The notes below the pieces were generated by a model, which worked only from the letters and a program-made list of their open reading frames with translations, had not been told where the DNA came from and did not search any database. Position numbers and translations under genes: made by a program. Positions 35,846 through 48,920 of a DNA stretch of 58,791 nucleotides are shown here, piece by piece (positions within the stretch are counted from its first letter, which is position 1; each line of letters starts with the position of its first letter). Source of the stretch: Candidatus Omnitrophota bacterium (GTDB lineage Bacteria; Omnitrophota; Gorgyraeia; JABMRN01; RBG-13-46-9); assembly GCA_020346285.1 (NCBI GenBank), contig CP070780.1:866245-925035 (forward strand), written 5' to 3'.

Positions 35846-35874
35846 CTTATAACATAAGGAAGAAATTTTGTCAA
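35846..35874 (-). promoter_or_regulatory. Promoter of rpsT, overlapping the murJ start
   Basis: Minus strand: TTGACA, 17-base spacer, TATAAG, then AATAAT and the rpsT ATG. The -35 box overlaps the murJ TTG start codon, and the expected transcription start falls on or next to the rpsT ATG. Confidence 0.7.
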
Positions 35875-37424
35875 ATAAAAGATTAATTAAATCTACTGGT
35901 TTAATCAGCTTTGCAACATGCTGTAGCAGGGTTTTTGGTTTTGCAAGAGATATACTGATAGCAAATTTTTTTGGAACTACTATATTTGCGCAAGCCTTTG
36001 TAGTCGCTTTCAGAATACCCAATCTCCTGAGAGACCTTATCGGTGAGGGGGCAGCCAATGCCGCCTTTGTGCCTGTTTTAACGGAATATTACACTACACG
36101 TTCAAAAGAAGATTTCTGGCGACTGGCAAAAAATCTTCTATACATTCTCGTTATCACTCTTTTTGTCATTTCGTTATGCGGAATTTTACTCGCCCCCGCT
36201 ATAGTGCGATTGATAGCGCCCGGCTTTATTGAAGATACCGCCAAGCTCGCGATAACCATAGAGCTTACTCGCATTATATTTCCCTTTATCTTTCTTATCG
36301 GACTGGTGGCTTATGGTATGGGTGTTTTAAATTCGCTTGACCATTTTGCCAGCCCTGCCTTTGGCCCGGTTTTATTGAATATCTCAATGATATTATTTCT
36401 TATATATGTATGCCCTAAAATAGGGATTAAAGGCCTTGCTTTGGCGGTTTTGGTGGGAGGGGCGCTTCAGGTCGCTTTGATAGGGACGGTTCTTTATAGA
36501 AAGGGATTGCGTTTTTTGCCGCCTACCTTCTTTTTTCATCCCGCCATAAAGAGAATATGGCGCCTTCTTGTGCCGCGCTTTTTTGGCTCGGCAGTATATC
36601 AATTAAGCGTTATCGTGGATAATATTTTTTCCACATTTGGGTGGATTGTGGGCGTGGGCGCGCCGGCCGCTTTGTGGTATTCTTATCGGCTTTTTCATCT
36701 TCCTTTGGCTATATTTGGCATCGCGCTGGCTACCGTAGCCCTTCCTAAAATGAGTAAAGAGGTAGCCAGAAAAGATATTTCTGCCCTTAAAGATACAATT
36801 AGCTTTTCTATGAGGAGCGTTCTCCTGGTGCTGATTCCCGCCGGTATCGGCCTTGCCACGCTTGGAAGGCCTATTATAAGGATACTTTTTGAAAGGGGGG
36901 AATTTACTCCATATTCGACTTTAATTACAGACAATGCCCTTTTCTTTTATTCTTTTGGCCTTTTTGCCTGCGGGGGCATAAAAATACTTGTAAATGCCTT
37001 CTTTTCTTTAGGGGATACGCGGACGCCGGTAAAGGTGGCCAGCGTTTCATTTTTTGTAAATCTTGTGTTGAATTTTGTATTAATGTGGCCGCTTAAAATA
37101 GGGGGATTGGCGCTGGCGACATCGATTGCCGCAACATCTAATTTTATAATGTTATACATATTGCTTACGAGAAAAATCGGAGATATAGGCACGCGAAGAA
37201 TCTTGAATTCATTCGGCCGCATTATAATGGCAAGCGCTATTATGGGTATTTTCTCTTATGCCGCGGCCGGCATGCTCCTAAGGCTGGATAAAGGAATTCT
37301 TATAAATTTTGCAGGTCTTTTAGCTGTTGTATTTCTTAGCGCGGCAATTTATATTCTTTCAAGTTTAGCCCTGGGCATCGGTGAAGTAAAGGCATTCGTG
37401 AGATGGATATTGAAAAAAGACTGA
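35868..37424 (+). CDS. murJ: Lipid II flippase MurJ
   Basis: 518 residues from TTG 35868, with AAGGA 7 bases upstream. Fourteen hydrophobic helices. Hallmarks: SRVFGFARDILIANFFG, FRIPNLLRDLIGEGAANAAFVPVLTEY and ILFERGEFTP. It flips lipid II to the periplasm for peptidoglycan synthesis. The end overlaps the uvrC-ogt gene by 22 bases. Confidence 0.95.
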   Translation: MSNKRLIKSTGLISFATCCSRVFGFARDILIANFFGTTIFAQAFVVAFRIPNLLRDLIGEGAANAAFVPVLTEYYTTRSKEDFWRLAKNLLYILVITLFVISLCGILLAPAIVRLIAPGFIEDTAKLAITIELTRIIFPFIFLIGLVAYGMGVLNSLDHFASPAFGPVLLNISMILFLIYVCPKIGIKGLALAVLVGGALQVALIGTVLYRKGLRFLPPTFFFHPAIKRIWRLLVPRFFGSAVYQLSVIVDNIFSTFGWIVGVGAPAALWYSYRLFHLPLAIFGIALATVALPKMSKEVARKDISALKDTISFSMRSVLLVLIPAGIGLATLGRPIIRILFERGEFTPYSTLITDNALFFYSFGLFACGGIKILVNAFFSLGDTRTPVKVASVSFFVNLVLNFVLMWPLKIGGLALATSIAATSNFIMLYILLTRKIGDIGTRRILNSFGRIIMASAIMGIFSYAAAGMLLRLDKGILINFAGLLAVVFLSAAIYILSSLALGIGEVKAFVRWILKKD

Positions 37425-38941
37425 AAAAAATTCCGACCTCACCCGGAGTTTACCTCTTTTTAGGCAAGAATAAAGAAGTGCTCTATATAGGAAAGGCCTC
37501 AAATTTAAAGAAGAGAATAAATAGTTATTTTCAAAAAAAATACCGCCCCCCAAGGACGGAATCCTTGGTTTCCCGGATACGGGATTTGGATTATATTCCG
37601 ACATCCTCAACCGCCGAGGCATTGATTTACGAAGCCAATCTTATTAAACAAAAAAAGCCGAAGTATAACGTTGAATTAAAAGACGATAAGTCGTATCCGT
37701 TTTTGAAATTAACTATAACCGAGAAATTTCCGCGGCTTTTTATAACCAGGCAGAGGAAAAAGGACCGTTCTTTATATTACGGCCCCTACACGAATGTCAA
37801 GCTTTTGAAAAAAGCGCTTTCTGTAATAAGAAGCACTTTTCTTTTAAGGTCGTGCAAGAGGATGCCTAAAAAGCCGTGCCTCAAGGCGCATATAAAACAG
37901 TGCGTTTCTCCCTGTAACGGAAGCATAACCGAAGAGAAGTATAAAAAAATAGCCGATGATGCAAGGCTCTTTTTAGAGGGCAGGAAGAAAGACCTTCTAA
38001 AGAGGCTTTCGGATAGGATGAAGAAAGCTTCCAAAAATTTAGATTATGAAAAAGCCATTGCCTTGAGGGACGAGATCGAAGCGTTAAGCGCGATGTGGAA
38101 AGGCAGGAGGCCGCCCCCGCCCTTAAATAGAGAAATCAGCCGGTTAAAGGATGTTTTGGGCCTTCGGGTTTTACCGGCGCGCATCGAGGCCTTTGACATA
38201 TCCGACATATCCGGAAAAGAGGCAGTGGGCTCTATGGTGAGTTTTTTTAGCGGCAGGCCGCAGAAAGACGAGTATAGAAGGTTCAGGATAAAGAACGTAA
38301 CGGGAATTGACGATTATGCATGCTTAAGAGAAGTTATCAGGAGGAGATATGCCCGCCTCTTGAAGGAAGAAGCCAGATTGCCGGACCTTATATTAATAGA
38401 CGGAGGGAGGGGCCATCTAAATGTGGCAAGGGATGAACTGGATAAAATAGGGCCTGTAAAGATCCCCGTTATAAGCATAGCCAAGGAGAAAGAATATATA
38501 TATGTAGACGGGAAAAAACCTCCTCTGGTATTGCCGCGAAGTTCACCGGCGCTTAAGCTAATCATGCGAATCAGAGACGAAGCGCACCGCTTCGCGATTT
38601 CCTACCACAAACTCTTGAGAAGCAAGTCGCTCTTTAACGATAAGAAACATGCCCCGCCCACCGTGCGCGCATGGGCGGGGTTGACCCCATTCCAGAGGCG
38701 GGTTTACAGGGCGGTTTCCTCTATTCCGCCGGGTGAAGTTCGTTCGTATAAATGGGTCGCAGAGAAAATCGGCGCCCCCCGCGCATATCGGGCCGTAGGC
38801 CACGCGCTTAAAAAGAATCCATATGTCGGCATAATTCCCTGTCACAGGGTTATAAAAAGTAACGGCTCTTTAGGCGGGTTTTCAAAAGGAAAAAGCCGGA
38901 AGAGAGGCCTTCTGAAACGGGAAGGCCTTGACGTTGGATAG
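37403..38941 (+). CDS. uvrC: UvrC fused to O6-alkylguanine DNA alkyltransferase
   Basis: 512 residues. The N-terminal GIY-YIG nuclease (about 12-90: GVYLF...VLYIGKA) is followed by a Cys-rich region, a UVR helix pair (about 200-230), and the RNase H-like nuclease with Asp265, Asp333 and His395 matching the catalytic D-D-H set. The spacer domain between UVR and RNase H (about 100 residues) is missing. After RSK (about residue 410) the usual C-terminal tandem HhH domain is replaced by an Ogt/MGMT DNA-binding domain: TPFQRRVYRAVSSIPPGEVRSY and a PCHR active site with Cys480. A palindrome (38652-38680) lies at the junction. It probably makes the incisions of nucleotide excision repair and may also recognise alkylguanine. 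Confidence 0.93.
   Translation: MDIEKRLKKIPTSPGVYLFLGKNKEVLYIGKASNLKKRINSYFQKKYRPPRTESLVSRIRDLDYIPTSSTAEALIYEANLIKQKKPKYNVELKDDKSYPFLKLTITEKFPRLFITRQRKKDRSLYYGPYTNVKLLKKALSVIRSTFLLRSCKRMPKKPCLKAHIKQCVSPCNGSITEEKYKKIADDARLFLEGRKKDLLKRLSDRMKKASKNLDYEKAIALRDEIEALSAMWKGRRPPPPLNREISRLKDVLGLRVLPARIEAFDISDISGKEAVGSMVSFFSGRPQKDEYRRFRIKNVTGIDDYACLREVIRRRYARLLKEEARLPDLILIDGGRGHLNVARDELDKIGPVKIPVISIAKEKEYIYVDGKKPPLVLPRSSPALKLIMRIRDEAHRFAISYHKLLRSKSLFNDKKHAPPTVRAWAGLTPFQRRVYRAVSSIPPGEVRSYKWVAEKIGAPRAYRAVGHALKKNPYVGIIPCHRVIKSNGSLGGFSKGKSRKRGLLKREGLDVG
38652..38680. repeat. Palindrome at the UvrC/Ogt domain junction
   Basis: CCCCGCCCA (38652-38660) pairs with TGGGCGGGG (38672-38680) around an 11-base GC-rich loop. 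It encodes the linker APPTVRAWAG between the two domains. Confidence 0.7.
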
Positions 38942-38956: not shown

Positions 38957-38960
38957 GAAT

Positions 38961-39033
38961 GAAGCGTTTGCAATTTCTCGTTCAACCTGTACCCGCAAGG
39001 GGTACAGGTTGAAATAGAAGCCGCAAACGCTTC
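38961..39033 (+). promoter_or_regulatory. Long nested hairpin in the prfB leader
   Basis: Outer stem GAAGCGTTTGC (38961-38971) with GCAAACGCTTC (39023-39033), 11 perfect pairs. Inner stem TTCAACCTGTACCC (38981-38994) with GGGTACAGGTTGAA (39000-39013), 14 perfect pairs around a 5-base loop. It starts at about the expected transcription start and ends 14 bases before the prfB ATG. Confidence 0.85.
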
Positions 39034-39047
39034 AAGAAGAGGTAAAT

Positions 39048-40146
39048 ATGTTAGAAGATATAAAGTTAGAATTGGAGAAGTTGGAAAAGAGGCTTAACAC
39101 CTTGGGAGGCTATCTTTGACGTAAGAGACTGCCAGAAGAAGATAGAGAAAATAGAAAAAGATATATCAAAAGAGAATTTTTGGAAGAACAGAGAAAAAGC
39201 AAATCAGTCCCTCAAGGAATTAAAGTATTTAAAACAATCTATTGAGCCTTTTGTCAAAAGCTCTTTCGCCCTCAATGAGATAAAAGAGCTGCTCACCATA
39301 ACCGAAGAGGGAGACGCCTCTTCATTGTCTCACCTTAAAGAAGAATTGCGAAATCTAAAAAAAGAAATAGACAATTTCGAATTTAAAAGTCTTTTAAACA
39401 AGGAAGAGGACGGGTTAAGCGCCATAGTAAGCATTAACGCGGGCGCCGGCGGCACCGAATCCTGCGACTGGGTCGGGATGTTATACAGGATGTATAACAG
39501 GTGGGCAGATAAGAAAAAATACGCAATACATAGAATCGACTATTTACCGGGTGAGGAAGCCGGCATAAAGAATGTGACTTTCATCGTAAAAGGGCAATTT
39601 GCCTATGGTTATTTGAAATCCGAAAGCGGCGTTCACAGGCTGGTAAGAATTTCGCCCTTCGACGCCAACAAAAGGCGGCATACCTCTTTTGCTTCCGTGG
39701 ATGTCATCCCGGAAATAGACGAAAATATAAAGATAGACATTAAGGAATCGGATTTAAAGATAGATACTTTCAGGGCAGGCGGCAAAGGGGGCCAGCACGT
39801 TAATGTTACCGATTCAGCCGTTAGAATAACGCACGTTCCCACTAAGATCGTGGTGCAATGCCAGAATGAACGTTCTCAGTATAAAAACAAACAGACCGCA
39901 ATGAAGGTCCTGAAATCCCGTCTTTACGAGCGAGAATTGGAAGTGAAAAAAGCCGAGCTTGCCAAGCAGTATGAAAAGAAAAAACCCATCGAATGGGGTA
40001 GCCAGATACGCTCTTATGTCCTGCACCCCTATTCATTGATTAAGGACCACAGGACCGGTTTTGAAATGCGGAATGCGCAGGCTGTTTTAAACGGTAGCTT
40101 GGACGGATTCATAGAAGCATATCTGAAAAAGATGAGAAAAAGATGA
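39048..40146 (+). CDS. prfB: Peptide chain release factor 2 (programmed +1 frameshift)
   Basis: The gene starts at ATG 39048, reads 23 sense codons to CTT, meets an in-frame TGA (39117-39119), and continues after a +1 shift at GAC 39118 to the stop at 40146. The full product is about 365 residues, normal for RF2. The shifted frame holds the helical N-terminal domain, the tripeptide anticodon SPF (in [13 protein letters not shown]), and the catalytic GGQ ([10 protein letters not shown]). It ends translation at UGA and UAA. The end overlaps secA by 4 bases (ATGA). Confidence 0.95.
39105..39120 (+). other. prfB: Programmed frameshift site of prfB
   Basis: GGAGGC-TAT-CTT-TGA-C: a Shine-Dalgarno-like GGAGG just upstream of the slippery CTT-TGA-C, the classical RF2 autoregulatory site. 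When RF2 is scarce, the ribosome slips onto the +1 frame. Confidence 0.97.
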
Positions 40147-43100: not shown

Positions 43101-43307
43101 GCGGGTCCCGAGAAAAAAGAAATGCTCCCGCCTTCGGCGGGATCCCGGAGAACTTCACCCGGAGAAACTCCATTCGGGGCGCAGCCAATGCCGGATACAA
43201 GGCCGTCCCGGGAGACGACGTATAGAAGAGAAAACGTTAAAGTCGGCAGGAATGAGCCCTGCCCCTGTGGAAGCGGGCTTAAATACAAAAAATGTTGTGG
43301 AAAATAA
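40143..43307 (+). CDS. secA: Preprotein translocase ATPase SecA
   Basis: 1054 residues. Walker A is [14 protein letters not shown] (about 137-146), with [11 protein letters not shown] as the DEAD-like Walker B. The crosslinking domain holds an extra helical segment of about 130 residues (roughly 285-420), as seen in some SecA proteins. The helical scaffold and wing are followed by a C-terminal zinc-binding tail [18 protein letters not shown]. It drives protein export through SecYEG. The tail linker contains a small CCCGCC-TTC-GGCGGG hairpin. The start overlaps prfB by 4 bases and the end overlaps lnt. Confidence 0.97.
43127..43141. repeat. Small hairpin in the secA linker
   Basis: CCCGCC-TTC-GGCGGG, a 6-bp stem with a 3-base loop, coding for PPSAG in the flexible linker before the zinc tail. 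Confidence 0.5.
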
Positions 43308-45337
43308 TCTTTTCGGCGTTCCTTTTAATCCTGGCTTACCCGAATTTTAATTTAGAATACTTAGCGTGGATTGCGCTTATTCCTCTATTCTTTGCCCTTG
43401 AGAACAAGAATATAAAACAAAGGTTTGTTGCGGGATATATATTTGGAGTCATATTTTTTTCAGGTATTTTGTACTGGCTTACAAACGTAACTGTTCCCGG
43501 CACAATTATATTGATACTTTTGCTTTCGTTAGCCCCCGCGATTTTTTGCCTGCTCTATGCTACGCGCCGGGCCTCTTCGCTATATGCTATAATTTTTGTT
43601 CCTTCCGCCTGGGTCCTTACCGAAAACCTGCGCGCGCATCTTTTTACGGGATTTCCCTGGGCATTATTGGCGCATTCCCAGAGTTTGAATCTTCCCGTAA
43701 TACAGATAGCGGATATCACGGGCGCTTACGGTGTTTCGTTTTTGATTGTTCTTGTAAATTTTGGCGTGTATCTGGCATTAAAAAAGACGCCTAAAAGATT
43801 TTATATCTTATTTTTTATATTTATTTTGTTTAGCTTGACGTGGACATATGGCCAGAATAGAATCAACTATGTTTACCCTGCCCGCGGACTCAAGGTTTCG
43901 GTTATACAGGGAAATATCCCGCAACATATAAAGTGGGACCCGTCGTATAAAAAATTTATTATCGATAAATATTGCGCTCTTACCAAAGAATCCCTGAAAG
44001 AAAACCCGGACCTTGTAATCTGGCCGGAGACAGCTGTGCCGGGTTATTTAGAAGAGCCTTACCTGAAGCGTCAGGTGCTCGATCTCGCGAAGTCCGGAAA
44101 TACGCATCTTTTGGTAGGCACGCTTAGAGAAGAAGGCTACGAATTTTTTAACAGCGCTACGCTTATATCCGATAAAGGAGAGGTCTTGCAAAATTACGAC
44201 AAGATTCATCTTGTCCCGTTCGGCGAGTTTGTCCCTTTCGAAAAGCTCCTTTTTCCGATGCGCGCGTTTATCGACAAACCCATCGGCGATTTTGACAGGG
44301 GCTCGGAGTTCACGGTATTCAAGGCCGTATTTAGCGATGTTATTCCCAGCCCCCGGAACATTCAGAAAACTACCCGGTTCCATAGCTTTTCGGCTCTTAT
44401 ATGTTTTGAAGACATTTTTCCCGGCCTCTCAAGGCATTTGGTCAAAAAGGGCGCAAGGTTTTTAGTAAATATAACAAATGATGCGTGGTTCGGGAAGACC
44501 GCTGCCCCGTACCAGCATGCGCAGGGTTCTATTTTCAGAGCGGTTGAAAATCGTACGCCTGTTGTCCGTGCCGCAAATACAGGGCTTTCATGTATAATAG
44601 ACCATAAAGGAAAGATTTTAAAATCTGTTAGAACGGGAAAAGGCCAGATTTTCGTAGAGGGATATGTAGCAGGAATGATAATGCCCACTTTTACAAAAAC
44701 ATTTTACACGCGCTTCGGCGATGTGTTCAGCTGGCTTTGTATCGTTTTGGTTTTGTTTGGCCTTGTGCGGCGATCGCCGAAACCTGTCCAGATCCTGATT
44801 TTGGCGTTAATTCTTACCCATGCTTCCTCTGTTTACGGCGAAGATGAAATCCATTATAGGGAAAAATTTAAATTCGGCTTTCCTTTCGGCAAAAAATACA
44901 ATTATGACAATATACTTGTGACAAGAGTCATCGATGGCGATACCATAGAATTGCAAAATCGGGAAAGGGTAAGGCTTATAGGGATAGATACTCCCGAAGT
45001 GCGGTTCAACCCTAAACTCAAACGAGACGCAAAACGCACAAAAAAAGAGTATGAGGCTATAATCGCAATGGGGAAAATTGCCGCGGAGTTTACAAAAAAT
45101 CTTGTAGAAGGAAAAAAGGTAAAACTTGAATTTGATATTGAGAAAAAGGATAGATACGGAAGGCTGCTTGCTTATGTCTACCTGGCTGACGGCAGGATGC
45201 TCAATGCCGAACTCGTTAAAGAGGGATATGCAAATGTTTATACCTTTCCTCCGAACGTGAAGTATGTCGATATGTTTTTGGAGTTGCAGCGGGAAGCAAG
45301 AGAAAATAATAGGGGATTGTGGGATGAGAATGGTTGA
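43292..45337 (+). CDS. lnt: Apolipoprotein N-acyltransferase fused to a staphylococcal-type nuclease
   Basis: 681 residues. The N-terminal 500 residues are Lnt: six or seven membrane helices (about 1-190), then a nitrilase-like domain with the catalytic triad Glu246 ([10 protein letters not shown]), Lys304 ([14 protein letters not shown]) and Cys371 ([10 protein letters not shown]). It adds the third acyl chain to lipoproteins. After a final helix (about 470-490) and a second hydrophobic stretch ending HASSVYGED, a TNase/SNase domain follows (about 540-680). It carries [23 protein letters not shown] and [12 protein letters not shown] with the Arg and Glu residues of the active site. The nuclease should sit in the periplasm. 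Confidence 0.93.
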
Positions 45338-45395: not shown

Positions 45396-48300
45396 ATGCC
45401 TGACATACCCAGTATAGATTATAAAAAACTGCCACTTTCTTTAATAGACGACCTTACCCAACTGTGCAATCGCCGCTTCATTTACAATAACATGCCCGAC
45501 ATTATTGCCCAAGACAAAACCGCAGCCGGAAAAGCTTCCCTGTTAATGATAGATGTCGATAACTTTAAAAATATAAACGATACTTTCGGGCATCTGGCAG
45601 GGGATAAAGTGCTGGTTGAGTTAGCTAAAAGATTGGATAAATACGTTTCTAAAAAGGGCATTGTAGCCAGATATGCTGGGGACGAATTTGTAATTTTGTT
45701 TCCCGGCCAGGATGAAAAGCAAGCTTATAAACTTGGCGAGGCAATGTTACAAGACATATCAGGATTGGAATGGCCGATAAAAGACAAAAATTTCGAAGGA
45801 TTAGGCCTGAGCATAGGTGTTGCCGCTTATCCGGCAGACAGCGCTTCCCTGATAGATTTGATAAGATGCGCGGATGAGGCCTTATACGCCGCTAAAAACA
45901 CCGGTAAAAATAGAATTTTAGTTTATAAATCTATCGACAAGGAGATAAAAGACCGTATCAGATTAAGGCAGGTGTTTCTGAGGCCGCCTTTCATAGACCG
46001 CGAAAAGGAACTCGAAGGCCTTAAGAAAGATTACAAAACTTCTCAGGCAGGCAAGAGAAAAGCTTTACTGGTAGAGGGGGAATCCGGCATCGGGAAGACC
46101 AGGCTCCTGGAGGAATTTTCCGTCTCAGCCGAAAGACAGGATACGTTTTTGTTATTCCGTAAGTTAGGGCAGAGAGGTGAAGGCGGGCCTCTCGCAGGGT
46201 TGGCAAAATTACTTCACCTGGTGGTAAATTCGTTCGGCCTTAATAAATTCGGAGCCATTCTTTCCGAGCTTAAAGATTCAGAACTCGCAGAGGTTTTATA
46301 TATATATCCGATGTTTAAAAAGCTTGCCAAGGATGTGTCTCCCGCAACAAAACCGGAAGGAAGAGCGGCTGATCTTTTTTCCGGTCTATGCAAGATAATG
46401 CTTAAGGTTACTCGTGAAAAAACCCTCGTTTTAATTGTCGATAACCTCCATTACGCAAATCAGCTTACTTTACAATTTTTCTCGGTACTACTTGGAATCT
46501 CCAAATTGAATAAATTCCTTTTTATAGGAACATACGATAAAAAAGCCATAGAAAAGACGCTAAGGGATTTTTTGGCCAAAGGCCTTTTCACGACTATAAA
46601 GCTCGAGCCCCTGGCAAAAGATGAGGTAACCCAACTGATTGAATCAATTTTTCCGGGTATTAAGCCCGAGCCTAAGCTGGTTGAAAATCTATACAAGGCA
46701 AGTAAAGGGAATCCGCTTTTGCTGGGCGAAATATTAAAAACCCTGGTTGAAAACGGCAGCATGCAATATAAAAATAAACAGTGGCAATCGAAGGCTATCG
46801 GAGCCGGCGATATTCCGGCTTCTTTACGCGATACCGTTGAACCCAGGATTGATAGATTAGATGATGAAACAAAAGAAATGCTTTCCTATGTAGCGGTTAT
46901 GGGCGGAAAGGTCGAGCTGGATATTCTAAAAAAATTCAGCGGCTACAATGAAGGGCGCCTATTTGAGCTATTAGACCGTGCCATAAACGCCGGCGTAATA
47001 AAATTGTCGGATTTAAAAAGCTATGATTCAGTGTCTTTTCAGGCCGGCCCGGCCAGGGAAACACTGGCTAAGATGATTCCTGCCCAGAAAGCTGCGGGTT
47101 TAAATCAAAGACTTGCTGAACTTATCAAAGACCATTATAAAGATGAGCTTCCGGTCCAGCTTGATCGCTTAATTCGACATTTCGAGCTGGGCATGGACAA
47201 AGCTACCGCTTTGAAATATAAAAATATAGCTCGCGAGATAGGCCAGAGCTTTGCTTTATCCAAGAGGGTGAGGAGCCTTTTAGAAAAAATAGAAAGGCAG
47301 GAAGAAATACCGGTAAGTATTGAAGAGCTGCTGGAAAGGCCGCTTAGCGAGGCAAGCGCTAAAATTATCAAGGATGTGGTATCTGCCGTTAGAGCGGCTA
47401 TCGTGGGGGCGTTGCTTTATCCCGCCGGCAATAAAATGCGTTCGGATTTACAGGATAAAGCTTATGAAATGATTCTCGACGTCCTTCGCAAGGACCCTAC
47501 CCTAACATTCACCGACGCAGAAGATAAATTATTAATAAATGGCAGCGAGCCGAAACAATGGGATACAAAAAGCGCCATTGGTTTTGCCTTTATCAGCCTG
47601 ATGAGAGATTATAATATTAGCAGTATAACCTTTAAGCATGGATTAGGAAAACAAGAATTTACATATTTTTTACATTGTATTGCGACCCCCGAAGAAGAAG
47701 TCAAAAACCAGGGAGGGCTTGTAGCGCTGTTTGAAAAAGGAAGTATCGCGCATATAAAAGTTGACGAAGTAAAATATGAAAAGCTCTCAAAGCTAACGGA
47801 AAGGGCCATTGGAATCAAAGGAATTAAGCAGCAAGAAACATTTTCGACAAGCCAGTTATCGAAGGGTAATTTGCTGGACATGCCTGTCGAACAGTATTTC
47901 GATCCAAAAATATTGGGTAAACTCGATCTTATAATCGAAGCATTTCTCTTGAATAAAAAAGATGCCAAGGTTGAAAAAATAACTAATAAATTATCGGAAA
48001 ATCTGGATACCACAGACGCCGCGGATAAAACAACGATTGCCGAAGGAGCTGTTCAACTTAGCAAATCCCTTCTTAAATATGAGAAGTTCCATCTTTTAGA
48101 AACATTGACAGGTTCGTTAATCAATAGATCTCGTAGAGCCAAGCAACCTAAAGAATTTGCAGAGCTTTCTGCAGGGCTTCAAATGATAGCCAATCGTCTC
48201 ATAGGTAAAGAAAACTTCGGCCAGGCGAGAACAATTATCAAGCACTTTAAAGAACAGATTGAGCCCGATTCGGCTTACACCGAACAGCAGAAAAAAGTCG

Positions 48301-48920
48301 TAGAGGAAGAATTCCAGAAGATCGCGCATCCCAAGGTAACCGAGGCTTTAGTAAATGCTCTTAAGCAAAAACTGGATTCCAGCAGTTACAGAAATATCAC
48401 AGAAATCCTGGCAGAACTCGGCGGATACGCCTTGAATTCCCTGCTTAAACTTTTAACCGAAGAAGAAGCCCCTAAAAAAGACGCGTTTGATCTTTATGTT
48501 ATGCGGCACTCGGTCGCCACGATACTGAAAAAAATAGGCCAGCCGGCAAAAGATGCTTTGAAAGAAATGCTGTCTGATAATCGCCCTTATGTTGTAAAAA
48601 ATGTCATAGAAGTGCTCGGCTACATCGGTGGCGAAGATGTGGTGAAAATATTAGCGCCTTGTTTCCAGGGCACTTCCACCCAAGTACGAATGCAATGCGT
48701 TCTCTCGCTGAAGAAAATCCACACGAAAGAAGCTCTAAAAAGCCTGCTTGAATTGCTGAAAGACAGCGATGGGAGTATAAGACAAGCAGCGAGCCTGGCA
48801 ATAGCGGAAATAGCCGACCCATCTTTTGAAAAGGAACTGGCGCCTCTTTTGGCAAACAGGTCAACAAAAAGCATAGCGGAAAAAACAATTCAGAAAATAC
48901 GGGCAAAAAAGAAAAAATAA
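45396..48920 (+). CDS. GGDEF-STAND ATPase-HEAT repeat signalling protein
   Basis: 1174 residues. A GGDEF domain (about 10-175) has the active-type signature RYAGDEF (A94-F98) and DVDNFKNINDTFGH upstream; no RxxD inhibitory site is seen before it. A P-loop ATPase of the AAA_16/STAND type follows, with Walker A GESGIGKT near 227-234 and Walker B VLIVDNLHYAN near 345. Then come winged-helix-like and long helical regions (about 480-1000) of no recognised family. At the end are four or five HEAT-type repeats (about 1030-1170, for example DNRPYVVKNVIEVLGYIGGEDVV). It presumably makes c-di-GMP under control of the ATPase and HEAT parts. A PilZ gene follows after 4 bases. The architecture is not one I recognise. 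Confidence 0.85.
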   Translation: MPDIPSIDYKKLPLSLIDDLTQLCNRRFIYNNMPDIIAQDKTAAGKASLLMIDVDNFKNINDTFGHLAGDKVLVELAKRLDKYVSKKGIVARYAGDEFVILFPGQDEKQAYKLGEAMLQDISGLEWPIKDKNFEGLGLSIGVAAYPADSASLIDLIRCADEALYAAKNTGKNRILVYKSIDKEIKDRIRLRQVFLRPPFIDREKELEGLKKDYKTSQAGKRKALLVEGESGIGKTRLLEEFSVSAERQDTFLLFRKLGQRGEGGPLAGLAKLLHLVVNSFGLNKFGAILSELKDSELAEVLYIYPMFKKLAKDVSPATKPEGRAADLFSGLCKIMLKVTREKTLVLIVDNLHYANQLTLQFFSVLLGISKLNKFLFIGTYDKKAIEKTLRDFLAKGLFTTIKLEPLAKDEVTQLIESIFPGIKPEPKLVENLYKASKGNPLLLGEILKTLVENGSMQYKNKQWQSKAIGAGDIPASLRDTVEPRIDRLDDETKEMLSYVAVMGGKVELDILKKFSGYNEGRLFELLDRAINAGVIKLSDLKSYDSVSFQAGPARETLAKMIPAQKAAGLNQRLAELIKDHYKDELPVQLDRLIRHFELGMDKATALKYKNIAREIGQSFALSKRVRSLLEKIERQEEIPVSIEELLERPLSEASAKIIKDVVSAVRAAIVGALLYPAGNKMRSDLQDKAYEMILDVLRKDPTLTFTDAEDKLLINGSEPKQWDTKSAIGFAFISLMRDYNISSITFKHGLGKQEFTYFLHCIATPEEEVKNQGGLVALFEKGSIAHIKVDEVKYEKLSKLTERAIGIKGIKQQETFSTSQLSKGNLLDMPVEQYFDPKILGKLDLIIEAFLLNKKDAKVEKITNKLSENLDTTDAADKTTIAEGAVQLSKSLLKYEKFHLLETLTGSLINRSRRAKQPKEFAELSAGLQMIANRLIGKENFGQARTIIKHFKEQIEPDSAYTEQQKKVVEEEFQKIAHPKVTEALVNALKQKLDSSSYRNITEILAELGGYALNSLLKLLTEEEAPKKDAFDLYVMRHSVATILKKIGQPAKDALKEMLSDNRPYVVKNVIEVLGYIGGEDVVKILAPCFQGTSTQVRMQCVLSLKKIHTKEALKSLLELLKDSDGSIRQAASLAIAEIADPSFEKELAPLLANRSTKSIAEKTIQKIRAKKKK

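Follow-up and report, generated by a model that had tools for sequence, protein, structure and literature searches.

One gene of an uncultivated Omnitrophota bacterium joins a UvrC nuclease to an O6-alkylguanine-DNA alkyltransferase (AGT, or Ogt) domain, and we consider, from its sequence, that the product is probably a bifunctional repair protein in which a suicide alkyltransferase is tethered to UvrC. The gene lies in a stretch of 58,791 nucleotides that was analyzed as a whole (hereafter, the window), and coordinates without another label refer to this window. The parts of the gene are as follows.

37403..38941, forward strand: uvrC-ogt fusion gene, one uninterrupted 512-codon frame (512 aa)
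37442..37669, forward strand: GIY-YIG nuclease domain, residues 14–89 (Pfam; GVY at 15, YIG at 28)
37853..37915, forward strand: Cys-rich region with C151, C159, C167, and C171 (conservation in relatives)
37988..38089, forward strand: UVR (UvrB-binding) motif, residues 196–229 (Pfam, 2.2e-09)
38150..38599, forward strand: RNase H-like nuclease domain, residues 250–399 (Pfam UvrC_RNaseH_dom, 1.7e-53; Foldseek, 2nrr and 3c65)
38639..38677, forward strand: linker, residues 413–425, at the site of the HhH pair in HhH-bearing relatives
38652..38680, forward strand: inverted repeat with perfect 9-bp arms within the linker, CCCCGCCCA-N11-TGGGCGGGG
38678..38926, forward strand: AGT/Ogt C-terminal domain, residues 426–508 (Pfam DNA_binding_1 at 429–508, 2.5e-31)
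38840-38842, forward strand: C480, the AGT nucleophile in the PCHR motif (sequence)

An earlier, sequence-only reading of this DNA had described one chain carrying UvrC and Ogt, and the single frame bears this out: the protein scored 433 bits against a cut-off of 285 with the uvrC model (TIGR00194) and 95 bits against a cut-off of 46 with the ogt model (TIGR00589). That reading had also claimed that both nuclease centers are kept, that the C-terminal HhH region is missing, and that the chain ends in an Ogt domain with an intact PCHR and a suicidal Cys480. Each of these features was recovered, i.e., the GIY-YIG domain was matched, the RNase H catalytic residues D265, D333, and H395 are in place and invariant among relatives, a Pfam search of the 512-aa protein matched no HhH model, and PCHR with Cys480 lies in the terminal domain. 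Y17, Y28, R38, E77, and N89 of the GIY-YIG domain are likewise invariant among relatives, as is C151, and C159, C167, and C171 are at least 90% conserved. The spacer between the nucleases, which had been described as lacking, is indeed short, but it is also short in the relatives sampled, whose UvrCs are ∼410–480 aa in all, vs. 574 positions in the TIGR00194 model; a short spacer is therefore no mark of the fusion. Compared with UvrC as modeled in TIGR00194, the fusion is alike in its GIY-YIG, Cys-rich, UVR, and RNase H domains with their catalytic residues, and differs in having no HhH pair, a very short spacer, and an added AGT domain. Its RNase H domain distinguishes it from Cho, which has a GIY-YIG domain without the RNase H part.

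In the AGT part, the Tyr, Arg finger, Asn, Cys, His, and Glu residues (Y25, R39, N48, C56, H57, and E83) were invariant across 33 AGT sequences, and the Cys-His-Glu catalytic triad with PCHR is complete. The counterpart of Tyr158 of human AGT is Phe (GGF), which speaks against the bifunctional reading, although many free relatives have Phe as well. The part thus resembles Ogt/AGT (PF01035, TIGR00589) in its C-terminal domain, PCHR, Arg finger, Tyr, Asn, and Glu, and differs in being joined to UvrC and in having no N-terminal domain, a domain found in most AGTs; only PF01035 was matched. Lack of the N-terminal domain does not preclude AGT activity, as AGT–endonuclease fusions illustrate (PMC10779285). 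Alkyltransferase-like proteins (ATLs) share the single AGT-type domain without an N-terminal domain and are linked to nucleotide excision repair (NER), but their active-site Cys is replaced by Trp or another residue, whereas the fusion retains Cys480 and the triad. Because all the conserved flipping and transfer residues are present, unlike in ATLs, ordinary suicide transfer is most likely; conservation of PCHR and Glu speaks for the usual transfer reaction over flagging of the ATL type. Judged from these residues, the alkyl-repair domain of the fusion probably still works.

The nearest precedent for the UvrC-AGT pair is the AGT-EndoV protein of Ferroplasma acidarmanus (PMC10779285), which likewise combines an AGT C-terminal domain with a repair endonuclease. 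That protein is archaeal and its nuclease is endonuclease V, whereas the nuclease of the Omnitrophota fusion is the dual nuclease of NER. Our search of the open literature turned up no description of a UvrC-AGT protein; subscription journals were mostly outside this search, so the absence carries little weight. UvrC/Cho variants are covered in a survey of GIY-YIG proteins from 2006, the text of which nowhere uses the word alkyltransferase (PMC1564403).

The structural comparisons agree with the domain assignments. Foldseek matched the UvrC halves to 2nrt, 3c65, and 1yd6, and the AGT part to 4wx9 and 1eh6; in a structure match with the OGT of M. tuberculosis, the AGT part was 53% identical over 81 columns. 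In the AlphaFold2 model each domain was confident and the linker was weak, with pLDDT < 50 at residues 416–419. The model from alignment A3 had a pLDDT of 89.3 and a pTM of 0.54, and that from alignment A4 had values of 79.2 and 0.43; in A3 the C-termini of the UvrCs were wrongly aligned to the AGT domain, and its model nonetheless scored above that from A4. Given the weak linker and the pTM of 0.54, the placement of the AGT domain relative to the nuclease is fixed by neither predicted model.

The source genome (G000) is a single contig of 1.43 Mb with one copy of UvrC and one AGT domain, that of the fusion itself. Three GIY-YIG matches were found, two of them in other frames of only 85 and 103 codons, and UvrA (1414.7 bits) and UvrB are both present. 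A second complete UvrC and Ogt beside a decaying fusion copy, which the earlier reading had raised against itself, was therefore ruled out. When related genomes were searched for the domain pair, homologous fusions were found in two other MAGs, 91% identical (G001) and 73% identical (G005), the contigs of which come from separate projects. All three carriers belong to one family of uncultivated Omnitrophota. Among the best ∼160 of 325 AGT matches in 384 Omnitrophota genomes, the fused frame occurred only in these three, and none of the three frames has a stop or frameshift between the domains. Between G000 and G001, dS was ∼0.36 in the UvrC part, and dN/dS was 0.13 in the UvrC part and 0.165 in the AGT part, values that place both halves under purifying selection. 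The linker showed no synonymous change in 10.7 sites, which is a weak signal.

We propose the following for the favored reading, in which the tethered alkyltransferase works beside UvrC. The N-terminal 410 residues would be the UvrC of the cell, incising on both sides (3' and 5') of lesions that UvrA/UvrB have marked, and the C-terminal 86 residues would be an autonomous O6-alkylguanine-DNA alkyltransferase that flips out the alkylated base and accepts its alkyl group at Cys480. Both parts would keep their ordinary activities, and any benefit would consist of a fixed 1:1 supply and a shared residence on DNA, to which the helix-turn-helix of the AGT may contribute affinity. The HhH region would have been lost by deletion in a lineage in which it was dispensable.

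The history of the locus was traced through its neighborhood, of which the flanking genes in the window are as follows.

35868..37424, forward strand: murJ, overlapping the uvrC start; conserved upstream neighbor
39048..40146, forward strand: prfB, downstream neighbor, with an in-frame TGA at 39117-39119 at a programmed frameshift site

The frameshift site is of the classical form (AGG...CTT TGA, window 39048-39125) and is also found in G003, a genome of the same family. Between uvrC-ogt and prfB, a large inverted repeat occupies window 38960-39034, with 35-nt arms that are 86% complementary and a 5-nt loop.

Across Omnitrophota, the string lptE-holA-murJ-uvrC-ogt-prfB-secA shows partial conservation; murJ is upstream of uvrC in 131 of 157 loci from all phyla examined, and the order murJ-uvrC-ogt is also present in Elusimicrobiota. 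We collected 135 non-identical unfused Omnitrophota loci, a sample biased towards good matches to the query, and in 99 of them a free AGT gene lies on the same strand within 300 bp downstream of uvrC. In the others it is further off (5 loci), absent from the stretch (28), or cut by a contig end (3). A less biased search of relatives gave uvrC and ogt within ∼600 bp in ∼33 of 42 unfused genomes that have both. In 54 of the 99 adjacent loci, the free AGT has a possible start no further downstream than the uvrC stop. The free AGTs have no N-terminal domain, with a median length of ∼95 aa by the shortest start, and PCHR is intact wherever the motif is clear of a contig end. Gene order thus indicates that the adjacency of uvrC and ogt is old. 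However, because the string includes unrelated genes, adjacency alone is no proof of a functional link.

On these sequences, two genes that had long been neighbors appear to have merged. The nearest unfused relatives (G002, G006, and G007, together with the fragment G004) have an HhH-bearing UvrC with ogt adjoining or overlapping, and for this reason the simplest and most likely route to the fused frame is a deletion that took away the HhH region together with the stop of uvrC and the start of ogt. LLRSK or LLRGK is the last conserved UvrC sequence in the fusions, and the AGT starts with LTPFQ after a further ∼5 to 18 residues. The 9-bp inverted repeat of the linker is kept in G001 and absent from G005, and since it occurs once in G000, we rejected the idea of a mobile repeat. 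The best tree separates G005 from G000 and G001, and a single fusion clade was not rejected (p-AU 0.365); one fusion event and two fit the tree alike and cannot be told apart. Two apparent fusions elsewhere were discarded: in G427 of Elusimicrobiota (reported open frame 572) a stop lies between the domains, and in G336 (reported frame 350) ogt merely overlaps uvrC.

A neutral merger, in which two independent repair enzymes were joined without further consequence and the linker and HhH loss drifted, is an unlikely account. As the old order murJ-uvrC-ogt-prfB-secA includes unrelated genes, little evidence for a benefit of joining the two activities can be drawn from either adjacency or fusion; furthermore, the linkers of G000 and G005 differ greatly and the HhH region has been lost repeatedly. 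In Elusimicrobiota, an HhH-less UvrC frame stays open into the coding sequence of a lytic transglycosylase (SLT) in two loci (L252:1164-3218 and L253:1234-3249), which indicates that joins between unrelated genes are possible; the SLT part has a signal-peptide-like stretch, and ogt comes next. Against drift, the fusion has stayed free of stops across the divergence of G000 and G001 and is present in G005, and the unchanged synonymous sites of the linker argue weakly in the same direction.

The sequence-only reading had gone further, with the AGT domain as a possible substitute for HhH binding that may redirect incision to O6-alkylguanine. This would make the AGT both the damage sensor and the DNA-binding part of a redirected excinuclease, holding the alkylguanine and guiding UvrC to it, in the way proposed for NER recruitment by ATLs, and we judge it improbable. 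The AGT does stand where HhH is missing and resembles ATLs in having no N-terminal domain, ATLs bind UvrA and UvrC (PMC10779285), and within the family HhH is lost with the fusion and retained in G002, G004, G006, and G007. However, the fusion, unlike ATLs, retains PCHR and the Glu of the triad, and G003, of the same family, has neither HhH nor ogt, with prfB directly after uvrC. Across the tree, HhH has also been lost irrespective of ogt. When the UvrCs of the 132 unfused Omnitrophota loci free of contig-end truncation were scored with an HMM built from HhH tails, 48 had HhH and 84 did not, and the UvrC tree of Omnitrophota loci requires at least 19 changes of state. UvrCs without HhH often have no adjoining ogt, and those with HhH often have one. 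The raw association of HhH loss with an adjoining ogt (Fisher p = 0.09) gave way to none over 12 phylogenetically independent pairs on starred branches (median p = 1), of which, on average, 1.0 differed in the same way, 1.2 in the opposite way, and 9.8 not at all; a link between the two was therefore rejected, and the claim of substitution is not supported.

These counts show that the HhH of UvrC is readily lost in Omnitrophota. In E. coli, 5' incision by UvrC requires HhH (PMC7835731). In H. pylori, by contrast, disruption of the single HhH left UV tolerance near wild type, with no marked rise in UV sensitivity, which also argues against the redirected excinuclease, and some Helicobacter UvrCs naturally lack the region (PMC9426483); an AGT domain is not described there. 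Given the frequent loss in Omnitrophota and the Helicobacter cases, the AGT is not needed to explain an HhH-less UvrC here.

It is also quite doubtful that the AGT domain acts as a built-in lesion recognizer that brings UvrC incision to O6-alkylguanines. If it did, the choice between reversal and excision would be made within one chain, and O6-alkylguanines too bulky for transfer could be targets. An internal start at codon 419, in the linker palindrome, that also yields a free AGT is very improbable: the codon is kept as a start (GTG in G000, ATG in G001), but no Shine-Dalgarno-like sequence precedes it in this C-rich stretch, and the G005 linker has no start codon. Finally, an assembly artefact or decaying copy has a negligible probability, for although all the sequences are from MAGs, three separate assemblies carry the fusion, and in the one-contig genome it is a stop-free single copy under purifying selection.

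ATLs point to cooperation between alkylguanine recognition and NER, and a natural UvrC-AGT chain bears on how they do so. The series of neighbors with or without HhH, ogt, and the fusion offers ready-made constructs for the effect of a tethered alkyltransferase on incision.

Other multidomain proteins were noticed in G000. Its UvrB (C1:39426-43061; L260:227-3862) carries a ∼550-aa intein that includes LAGLIDADG and HTH parts (Intein_splicing, 2.1e-16) and sits in the Walker A motif (GVTGSGK/TF). At window 43292-45337, an apolipoprotein N-acyltransferase (Lnt) has a C-terminal staphylococcal-nuclease domain (5.4e-25), and at window 45396-48920, GGDEF, AAA_16, and HEAT repeats are found on a single chain.
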